A stretch of DNA of 44,835 nt, from the IMG/VR virus record IMGVR_UViG_3300009157_000026, positions 1 through 44,835 of that record. One strand, given 5' to 3'. The position numbers and the translations under genes are program-made. The notes below the pieces were generated by a model. That model was not told where the DNA came from, did no database searches, and saw only the letters and a list, made by a program, of their open reading frames with translations. Within the stretch, counting starts at the first letter, position 1; each line of letters starts with the position of its first letter. Source of the stretch: a virus. Positions 3,523-44,835 of the stretch are shown piece after piece.

Positions 3523-3574
3523 AGAAAATGGATAATCGCGCAGTCAACAAATCAGGAACCAACGGAGAACCATG

Positions 3575-4201
3575 ATGAAAACCGCATTTGTCAAGGCCAA
3601 GGGCATGTACAAGGCTGGCCAGCTCACGCGTGAGCAGTGGCTGAACAGGTTTATCCATGCGGCGCGCGCCGCGTTCGCCTTCAATGGCAAGCCCTTGCCG
3701 CCGAACGTGCGCGCCGCGATCTGCCCGCCGCACCGCAAGATGCAGGCGATTGGCCTGTGCTGGACGGGCAACGTGACCGAGGACAAGGGGCGCGAGATCT
3801 GGATCACGTCAGCCGAGACGGACCCGGTGCGCGTCGCTGGCATCCTGGTGCATGAGCTTTGTCATGCCGCGCTGCCGCACGAGGTGAAGCACGGCAAGGA
3901 GTTCCGCGCGCTGGCGACCGCGCTCGGGCTCGAAGGCAAGATGACGGCCACCACCGAGGGCGAGCGCTTCCGCACCATCTGGCAGGAGCTGATCGAGAAG
4001 CTCGGTCCCCTCCCGACCGGGCGCTATGTGCATGGCCACGCGGTGGATTTCCGTGTGCAGAAGACACCGAGGATGACCAACATGGCGTGCCCGCAGTGCG
4101 GCTTCGTGGCGAAGGTGCGGATCGACCAGATGGACGCCGGTCGCCTGCGCTGTCCCAAGCATGGCGTGGAGCTGCTGCGACCGCAGGAGAGGGAGGGGTG
4201 A
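3575..4201 (+). CDS. SprT-like zinc metalloprotein
   Basis: A 208-residue protein. The catalytic zinc motif HELCH lies at about 93-97 in ILVHELCHAALPHEVKHGKEF, with a later His as likely third ligand. A C-terminal zinc ribbon follows (CPQCG near 160 and CPKHG near 185). This matches the SprT/Spartan family, metallopeptidase-like proteins linked in cells to DNA-protein crosslink repair. The phage versions are little studied. Two ATGs are adjacent (3572 and 3575). I chose 3575 because the GGAG-to-ATG spacing is then 7 nt, as in the other leaders of this genome. It is the last gene before the regulatory gap 4202-4451. Confidence 0.85.
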   Translation: MKTAFVKAKGMYKAGQLTREQWLNRFIHAARAAFAFNGKPLPPNVRAAICPPHRKMQAIGLCWTGNVTEDKGREIWITSAETDPVRVAGILVHELCHAALPHEVKHGKEFRALATALGLEGKMTATTEGERFRTIWQELIEKLGPLPTGRYVHGHAVDFRVQKTPRMTNMACPQCGFVAKVRIDQMDAGRLRCPKHGVELLRPQEREG

Positions 4202-4225
4202 CGTAACAGGACCTACTCATGCGAG

Positions 4226-4354
4226 CAAAGTCAAAAGTCAGCACTTCTGACCAAAAACCACCGCTGCCAAATAAATTGGTGGGGGGGGGGTTAAGAGAGA
4301 GAGAGAAAAAGCGTACCGGGGGTTTTTCGTCACGTGACCTGACTTTAGACTTTT
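4226..4354. repeat. 38-bp imperfect inverted repeat around a G10 tract
   Basis: Left arm 4226-4263 and right arm 4317-4354 are inverted copies. The outer 16 bases match at 14 of 16 (CAAAGTCAAAAGTCAG against the reverse complement of CTGACTTTAGACTTTT), and the inner 16 match at 14 of 16. The 6 bases between them are unlike. The 53-bp centre holds GGT followed by ten G (4281-4290) and a GA-repeat (4295-4305). The zone is AT-richer than the genome and lies between early and late genes. It could be a replication origin, a protein-binding operator or an RNA structure. Confidence 0.8.
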
Positions 4355-4387
4355 CCCTTCGTTGAATTTCCAGCGTTTTTCCAGTTC

Positions 4388-4426
4388 CCCCACCTTCCCC
4401 TGAGCCGGAAGGTGGGGTAGTTTTTT
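4388..4426 (+). terminator. intrinsic terminator
   Basis: CCCCACCTTCC (4388-4398) pairs perfectly with GGAAGGTGGGG (4407-4417), an 11-bp GC-rich stem with an 8-nt loop. It is followed by TAGTTTTTT (4418-4426). This is a classical Rho-independent terminator for plus-strand transcripts. It separates the early block from the late genes that start at 4452. Confidence 0.9.
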
Positions 4427-4451
4427 CGTGCGTTAAATTTGGAGGATCAAA

Positions 4452-5102
4452 ATGAGGACTGAACGAAACCTTGCCACCTACGTGTTCGGACACCTGTTGG
4501 AGAGCGAGCTTCCCGCGAAAAACCTGAAATCGGCCGCATCTCGAAGGCGCTGGGTGTCGAAGATCGAGCCCTCGCTGGGCTCGACGCATGGCGCGGCTGA
4601 CGCGCTCGCCATGAACCGCTTCACCCGGGAGACGATCGCGGTCGAGTTCAAGATGGCGAAGCTGATCTCCCTCAATGGGTCAAACGCGCGCAAGTATGTG
4701 GCGCGTCCGGACCTGTCATCCGGCGAAGACGTGCCCGTCTATCAGCTGTCAACGGAAGGCCGCGTGCTGCGCCCGTCGCGCATTCGCCCGTCGCAAATTG
4801 CTTGGCACGATGAGTTGCAACGCGCTGGTGGCAAGTCGCGCATGATCTTCGGTGTGCGTGATGATGATGGCCGCGCGCAGTGGGAGGTCTGGTTCACCGA
4901 TGACTGCTCGGCTGAATTCCTGCGCCACTGGTCGAGTGGCTTCGAGCTGAGCGATCTCACACGGATCGCGACTGCTGGCATCTTCAGCCTGACGATGTGG
5001 GACACTGGCGCATTCGGCCCGAGCTTGGTAAGCGTGCCAGATCAGAAACGGCATGAGCACGCACGTGGGCAAAGCGAACCGCACGTCGTTCAAGAAGGGT
5101 GA
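4452..5102 (+). CDS. unknown protein, possible PD-(D/E)xK nuclease, upstream of terminase
   Basis: A 216-residue protein with a clear Shine-Dalgarno (GGAGG, 4441-4445). The segment GAADALAMN followed by ETIAVEFKMAK, and then KYV and PVYQLST, has the spacing of a PD-(D/E)xK nuclease core (acidic residue, a strand with ExK, later Gln). This is a pattern reading, not a confident family assignment. First gene after the terminator at 4388-4426, it probably opens the late operon. Its last 50 bp overlap the next gene in another frame. Nucleases near terminase genes often assist packaging, so a nuclease would fit the context. Confidence 0.7.
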   Translation: MRTERNLATYVFGHLLESELPAKNLKSAASRRRWVSKIEPSLGSTHGAADALAMNRFTRETIAVEFKMAKLISLNGSNARKYVARPDLSSGEDVPVYQLSTEGRVLRPSRIRPSQIAWHDELQRAGGKSRMIFGVRDDDGRAQWEVWFTDDCSAEFLRHWSSGFELSDLTRIATAGIFSLTMWDTGAFGPSLVSVPDQKRHEHARGQSEPHVVQEG

Positions 5103-31551: not shown

Positions 31552-31838
31552 GGTATCAAGCCATCGTTCGGGCCGGGCTCGGGCGTGGAGCCGTCCTTCT
31601 TGTCTGTCAGCCGTTGCAGCTCGCGCAGCAGCATCGACGAGAACGACGCTGCTGCGAGCAGCCCGTAGAGCCGGTCCTGCGCCAAGGTTTCGGCCTTGTC
31701 CTTCTGCTCCATTGCAATGCGCATCGCGGCTACGGCTGATCGGCAATTTTCCTCAGCCGTATCGACGCGCCTTTTCATCTCATTCAAGCGTGCCTCGTGC
31801 TCGGCATCGGTCATTGCGAGCGTCTCGGCGGGGATCAT
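31548..31838 (-). CDS. 96-residue coiled-coil protein
   Basis: The start used is ATG 31838 (MIPAETLAMTDAEHE). An alternative ATG lies 8 codons in. Almost the whole length is a helix with heptad character (ARLNEMKRRVDTAEENCRSA, ASFSSMLLRELQRLTDKK). The end is Pro/Gly-rich. It couples by ATGA to the next gene and lies 8 nt from the end of the upstream one. Family is not recognised. Confidence 0.7.
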   Translation of the reverse strand: MIPAETLAMTDAEHEARLNEMKRRVDTAEENCRSAVAAMRIAMEQKDKAETLAQDRLYGLLAAASFSSMLLRELQRLTDKKDGSTPEPGPNDGLIP

Positions 31839-44574: not shown

Positions 44575-44802
44575 ATGATCACCCGCTACCACACCCTCTC
44601 CTGCCCCGACTGCAAGCGCCAGAAGCTGGTCGCCATCCCGTCGCAGACGCACTTCTCCTGCTGCAACAGCTGGGAGGTCGAGGTCGAGCTGGTGCGCGAC
44701 GGCATGCTCGTCAACGTCGGCGAGACGTGGACGCGCGCCAAGGAGGAGCTGGCCAACTGCGTGTGGCGCGGGGCGGAGACGCCCTTCGCCGACAATCACT
44801 GA
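44575..44802 (+). CDS. 75-residue Cys-rich early protein (continues at 1-70)
   Basis: The protein starts MITRYHTLSCPDCKRQKLVA and continues PSQTHFSCCNSWEVEVELVR. CxxC and HxxCC give a plausible zinc site. The leader here is ACCGGAGG, slightly different from the others. The last 22 codons are inside the terminal repeat, so the coding sequence at 2-70 is the same gene. Function is unknown. Confidence 0.8.
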   Translation: MITRYHTLSCPDCKRQKLVAIPSQTHFSCCNSWEVEVELVRDGMLVNVGETWTRAKEELANCVWRGAETPFADNH

Positions 44803-44835
44803 AACTGACTGAAACTGACTGAAACTGACTGAAAC
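44733..44835. repeat. terminal direct repeat, right copy
   Basis: This is identical to bases 1-103. It ends inside the 10-bp tandem array at GAAAC. Only three full repeat units fit before the contig ends, against four full units in the left copy. Confidence 0.95.

Follow-up and report, generated by a model that had tools for sequence, protein, structure and literature searches.

Inverted iterons around a microsatellite spacer form a probable SF3-helicase-type replication origin in a tailed-phage genome

Genomic setting

The window, that is, the whole 44,835-nucleotide stretch of IMG/VR virus record IMGVR_UViG_3300009157_000026 analysed here, encodes a terminase, portal, major head protein, tail proteins and an endolysin, together with polymerase III alpha, an exonuclease, a Toprim/SF3 primase-helicase (DUF5906), and SNF2- and UvrD-type helicases. 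The first ~31 kb carry plus-strand genes, and the replication genes, between about 31 and 43.4 kb, are encoded on the minus strand. The contig looks complete, as its ends overlap exactly by 103 bp (1-113 and 44733-44835), which probably reflects a circularised assembly broken in a repeat. This overlap takes in tandem copies of the decamer ACTGAAACTG, 4.8 of them at 66-113.

A 250-bp gap separates the stop codon of a SprT-like gene (4201) from the start of a nuclease-like gene (4452), which is followed by DUF5681, terminase and portal genes. The gap contains a large inverted repeat and, after it, an intrinsic terminator (Table 1). The latter had been proposed from the letters of the sequence and was recovered as a terminator-like hairpin plus T-run; it is a feature separate from the origin element discussed below. 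A similar hairpin with a T-run is present in L003, the nearest non-identical relative, and none was seen in another relative, L004. Between the right arm and the terminator, the block TTCGTTGAATTTYCAGCGTTTTTCCA (4357-4382) is near-identical in L003 from about position 2676. A 48-codon frame (4219-4365) noted earlier does exist, and was rejected as a coding sequence as it is not conserved in relatives; the first ATG of the corresponding region in L003 is followed by a stop after 11 codons. A search for tRNA and tmRNA genes found none, and Rfam covariance models gave no match in the window at gathering scores.

Table 1. Coordinates of the inverted element, its neighbours and the presumed initiator in the window.
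Feature	Position	Strand	Basis
SprT-like protein gene, directly upstream	3572..4201	+	phrog_6361; PF10263 just under cut-off
Left arm of inverted repeat	4227..4263	+	sequence comparison of arms
Left iteron pair AAAGTCA AAAGTCA, two tandem 7-mers	4227..4240	+	sequence
Spacer, 53 bp, 49% GC (window 63%), probable unwinding region	4264..4316	.	composition
Right arm of inverted repeat	4317..4353	-	sequence comparison of arms
Right iteron pair TGACTTT AGACTTT, left pair inverted, one mismatch	4340..4353	-	sequence
Intrinsic terminator, 11-bp stem, 8-nt loop, T-run	4388..4425 (hairpin 4388-4417)	+	stem-loop followed by T-run
216-aa protein, probable VRR-NUC-like nuclease	4452..5102	+	L004 homologue weakly matches PF08774, below cut-off
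Presumed origin-binding initiator, Toprim-like primase + SF3 helicase (DUF5906) + C-terminal winged-helix-like domain, 743 aa	35235..37466	-	

Anatomy of the inverted repeat and its spacer

The two arms pair at 29 of 37 positions, and the outer and inner 16-bp blocks of the arms match at 14/16 positions each, which reproduces the 28 of 32 matches reported by the sequence-only reading. Among inverted repeats with spacers of 25-120 bp in the 44.8-kb genome, this one has the highest score (34, followed by 26), and none of 60 first-order Markov genomes reached that score (maxima with a mean of 25.6 and a top value of 32). The large inverted repeat is thus non-random and the best of the whole window. 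Tandem heptamers, two per arm, sit at the outer end of each arm, forming two short iteron sets in opposite orientation, and the period-7 tandem repeat inside the arm is unexpected relative to shuffled arms (p = 0.013). The number of clear iterons, only two per arm, counts against reading the element as an origin.

The iteron sets enclose a low-GC spacer, in which the ten-G tract and the GA-run described earlier are present: G10 at 4281-4290 and a 19-nt homopurine AG/GA run at 4293-4311 that includes (AG)6 at 4294-4305. In the window, G10 is the only mononucleotide run of at least 8, and (AG)6 is the sole non-CG perfect dinucleotide run of at least 10. The suggestion that the zone is AT-rich also holds, since the lowest-GC 150-bp segment of the genome is at 4323 and the 250-bp segment at 4204 is the second lowest (48% vs ~63%).

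Conservation in relatives

Loci of relatives were gathered via the SprT-like protein and the terminase; a search of genome contigs with a SprT-alignment profile yielded no relative. An inverted repeat is again located behind the SprT-like gene in seven of them, whose SprT-like proteins share 86% (L003), 76% (L004), 75% (L005), 67-68% (L015, L016, and L017) and 65% (G019, locus L245) identity with that of the window. The arms vary in sequence while the inverse match is kept (GAAAAGGTCAAAAG, AAAGGTCAG repeats, GGTTCAGAGTTCAGAG, AAGGTCAAGGGTCA, and GGCTCAAAGCTCAAAGG), extend to ~65 bp in G019, and are built of tandem units mostly of 7-9 bp with a TCA core. Most spacers carry a purine microsatellite, the type of which switches from G10 and GA in the window to GGA in L003, ATG and GA in L004, GA/GGA in L015, about twenty GA in L016, and A9 plus purines in G019. 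This switch of repeat type is the only form in which the suggested variation of the G-run was seen. In the gap of L011, which is closely related and has an initiator of the same type, no clear inverted repeat was seen, though an A15/GA7 tract is kept, and the gap of L010, L012, and L018 has only a 12-15-bp pair of other sequence; these four loci speak against the origin reading. A lack of conservation in relatives had been named as an outcome that would speak against a role for the element; the architecture is kept, and the sequence is not.

In more distant members of the group, the element lies directly behind a gene for an SF3 helicase of the DUF5906 or VapE kind, and its distance from the stop codon is ~13 bp in L090 and L106, 2 bp in L129, and ~90 bp in L095. 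The related phages L090 (511-653) and L106 (703-845) share an element, one arm of which is closer to its partner in L106, possibly through template-switch correction between arms.

The pairing with a helicase gene also bears on the earlier suggestion of a late-operon switch, in which a phage or host regulator would bind the repeats as an operator or late-promoter control site and switch the terminase/structural operon. The position of the element ahead of the nuclease-terminase operon, with a terminator following, agrees with such a role. Nevertheless, a promoter scan found no sigma-70-like promoter in the region, the element accompanies the helicase gene and not the terminase operon in L090, L106, L095, L129, and the VapE loci, and an operator has no need of a structure-prone spacer of 26-107 bp. 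We therefore regard a control site as quite improbable.

Association with SF3 helicase genes

Scanning with an alignment of VapE yielded 80 loci, of which 60 remained after 90% clustering and 55 had enough 3' sequence. The centre of the top inverted repeat (25-120 bp spacer) lay 0-450 bp past the helicase stop in 30 of these 55 loci, where about 3 were expected (fraction 0.055; p = 1.7e-23). Among the 30 loci with a top repeat score of at least 30, the number was 24. In the control of distant SprT-like loci, the top repeat occupied the same position in 1/47 (3.1 expected). The element thus follows the SF3 helicase and not SprT, and association with SprT as a cause was rejected.

Tandem units, mostly of 7-9 bp, were found in 36 of 41 arms, and they distinguish adjacent elements (27/30 with tandem units in an arm) from non-adjacent top repeats (5/25). 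Of the five tandem-bearing non-adjacent repeats, four are located 2.0-3.5 kb downstream (L155, L195, L203, and L229) and have the appearance of displaced origins, like the window element, and one, L230, is at +520.

These counts weigh on a further proposal of the sequence-only reading, a structured RNA. A long RNA hairpin between the SprT-like and nuclease genes could act as an RNase III processing site, an mRNA stabiliser or a translational decoupler, and its location between co-directional genes, its pairing over 37 nt and its position 3' of a gene in relatives as well would suit this. We consider it unlikely, given that the predicted fold of the gap is unremarkable (z = -1.19, with 27 of 200 shuffles at least as good), that spacers of 26-107 nt and tandem units in the arms are odd for a processing hairpin, that the element tracks the helicase gene, and that pRN1 elements of similar build act as origins (PMC4234260).

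Isolated phages with the element behind an SF3 gene include Marinobacter PS3, Staphylococcus phi2958PVL, Paenibacillus Lena, and Bordetella BPP-1. The BPP-1 arms (TTGCCTCGTTTGCCTCGTTTCT) are a perfect inverse (22/22) around a 60-bp AT-rich spacer. This region (L248, 1108-1211), downstream of bbp29, has 22-bp arms of two tandem TTGCCTCGT units each and is a specific candidate origin for BPP-1. Corynebacterium Dina gives a less convincing example, with repeated GTTGTCCC/GGGACAA units and a best pair of 12 bp, and the SF3 phages BV57P1 (Bacteroides-type), Roseobacter RDJL3, Edwardsiella MSW-3, and Klebsiella 1611E-K2-1 showed short or ordinary hairpins only.

A functionless quasi-palindrome with microsatellites could also be remade again and again by template switches and slippage in a fragile region. 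Fast sequence change with symmetry retained, the microsatellites in the spacers, and the difference between L106 and L090 in one arm, toward the sequence of the other arm, are what this would produce, and such processes may well describe the sequence evolution of the element without denying it a function. As a full explanation, a mutational by-product is very hard to credit for an element that is tied to one gene type over unrelated phages with hosts in several phyla, and whose counterparts in pRN1 and PICIs are experimentally required.

The presumed initiator

No SF3 protein other than the 743-aa DUF5906 protein was found in the window. The DUF5906 protein matches PF19263 (1.5e-21, over the cut-off), and residues 439-641 match the structures 6k9c/6k9e/6lrb (3.9e-9), which we take to be the NrS-1 phage primase-helicase (entry text: Primase). 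The N-terminal half has a Toprim-like pattern, FIHEGAK...VADND, recognised by eye, and Pfam gave no archaeo-eukaryotic primase (AEP) match in the protein. The C-terminal 135 residues were modelled as winged-helix-like (pLDDT 77) with the order H-H-E-H-H-EEE; the best Foldseek matches to this model were winged helices and NrS-1-like helicases, weak and not significant, and no origin-binding domain entry was prominent among the PDB matches. AlphaFold was also run on the complete initiator with three sequences as input; that model had low confidence (pLDDT 41) and was not used. The gene lies ~11.5 kb from the element on the circular map, which, like the non-significant winged-helix matches, counts against the origin reading, and there is no gap behind the gene that could hold an origin immediately 3' of the initiator.

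A probable replication origin

The sequence-only reading had left a replication origin, a late-operon switch and a structured RNA side by side. Comparison strongly favours the first and neither of the others, since the inverted-iteron layout is located behind SF3 helicase genes in many phages. On these sequence grounds, the region 4227-4353 is most probably a double-stranded phage origin of the SF3-helicase type, with iterons that would be bound by the phage's own DUF5906 primase-helicase. By analogy with known systems, the AAAGTCA iterons in opposite orientations would be bound by this Toprim-like primase/SF3 helicase/putative winged-helix protein through its C-terminal domain, and the inverted sites would place two hexamers on the DNA in opposite orientations. 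The hexamers would then melt the 53-bp low-GC, purine-rich spacer lying between them, the Toprim domain would prime in both directions, so that initiation would be bidirectional, and the phage-encoded polymerase III alpha would elongate. A special part for the G10/GA tract in opening is speculative.

The cumulative GC skew of the whole window, which had been proposed as a check, has its minimum at 2083 and not at 4.2 kb, and its maximum at 31590. The skew was left out as evidence because it is confounded with gene direction and hence uninformative. The decamer array at the contig ends might be a second regulatory or replication site. As a rival origin (66-113 / 44798-44835) it was rejected, as it consists of direct repeats only and an inverted set was not found; a role as an accessory site is conceivable.

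Comparison with known origins

The pRN1 origin is a stem-loop of ~100 bp, with a 21-nt stem and a 58-nt loop, located downstream of a primase-SF3-winged-helix gene. Replication depends on this structure, which still functions at another place on the plasmid and whose shape, unlike its sequence, is conserved; the same kind of origin, a stem-loop without iterons, was predicted for phages such as BIP-1, a relative of BPP-1 (PMC4234260). The window element resembles the pRN1 origin and that proposed for BIP-1/BPP-1 in the size and shape of the inverted repeat, in its mode of evolution, with a conserved shape and variable sequence, and in the link to a primase-SF3 protein with a winged-helix domain (putative in the window), whereas it differs in the primase, which is archaeo-eukaryotic there and Toprim-like in the window. 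Moreover, no iterons were seen in PMC4234260, whereas the arms found in the present comparison, with those near BPP-1 bbp29 among them, consist of tandem iterons. The distance between initiator and element is unusual, but the pRN1 origin tolerates being moved and displaced candidates are found in other loci.

In phage P4, the repeats are in two separate regions, whereas the window has one compact inverted element. The P4 alpha protein with ori/crr, to the extent that PMC4234260 describes it, is alike in combining a Toprim primase, an SF3 helicase, and a C-terminal winged-helix domain (putative in the window) acting on iterons.

The origins of PICIs and SaPIs have two iteron sets around an AT-rich region immediately 3' of the initiator rep, and the rep-ori segment of an E. 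coli PICI supported plasmid replication (PMC6092414). SaPI origins are described as a mirror of the SV40 origin, in that their oppositely oriented repeats load a pair of SF3 hexamers facing each other head to head (PMC9894130). As far as these origins are set out in PMC6092414, with the SaPIbov1 ori as cited in PMC9894130, the window element shares with them the opposed iteron sets, the probable AT-rich melting region, and a presumed cognate self-loading SF3 helicase. Unlike these islands, the window is a full tailed-phage genome with terminase, portal, major head protein (capsid), and tail genes, its element is not 3' of the initiator, and the spacer is marked by G10 and GA tracts. Since a position next to the initiator and a satellite context were both tested and neither was found, we do not class the element as a PICI origin. 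The SV40 origin with large T antigen, where two SF3 hexamers are believed to assemble head to head on inverted sites (PMC9894130), offers an analogy of mechanism only, not of sequence. New here are the setting in a full phage genome, the distance from the presumed initiator, and the microsatellite spacer.

This layout was thought to be special to small phage satellites; given its presence on many full-size phages, a common origin type for the two is probable, with implications for PICI descent and for origin-based interference. In addition, the origins of environmental phages are mostly unmapped, and candidates for a large phage group could be located by a simple rule, namely to take the inverted iteron pair that scores highest among those with spacers of 25-120 bp, which in most cases follows the SF3 helicase gene.

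Microsatellite spacers across SF3-helicase phages

Homopurine runs of at least 15 were found in 10 of 41 spacers (3.1 kb) vs three in 13.5 kb of other non-ORF DNA from the same loci, and alternating runs of at least 16 in six of the 41 spacers vs none in that other DNA. A tentative and rather doubtful extension of the origin reading is that SF3-helicase phage origins form one large hidden class, including initiator-detached origins, with spacers selected for structure-prone microsatellites. The spacers of such a class would be homopurine (GA, GGA, G10) or alternating purine-pyrimidine (CG/CA/TG) and not simply AT-rich, and triplex or Z-DNA in them would perhaps help opening. Slippage at an often-unwound site could alternatively be the source of the numerically strong enrichment in homopurine and alternating tracts. 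Either way, the microsatellite spacers pose the concrete question of how two SF3 helicases open DNA.

VapE-type spacers (L158, L181, L182, L199, L212, L221, and others) contain long GA, CA/TG, or CG alternating tracts, and the words TATAGG/CCTTAT recur close to these. There is also a recurrent gene order in the unrelated phages of L146, L148, and L149 (Staphylococcus, Corynebacterium, and Paenibacillus), in which an SF3 helicase gene is followed by a gap of ~300 bp, a small endonuclease, which is a VRR-Nuc in L149, and a helicase. The window retains the gap, the nuclease-like gene and the terminase, and its SF3 gene is located elsewhere.
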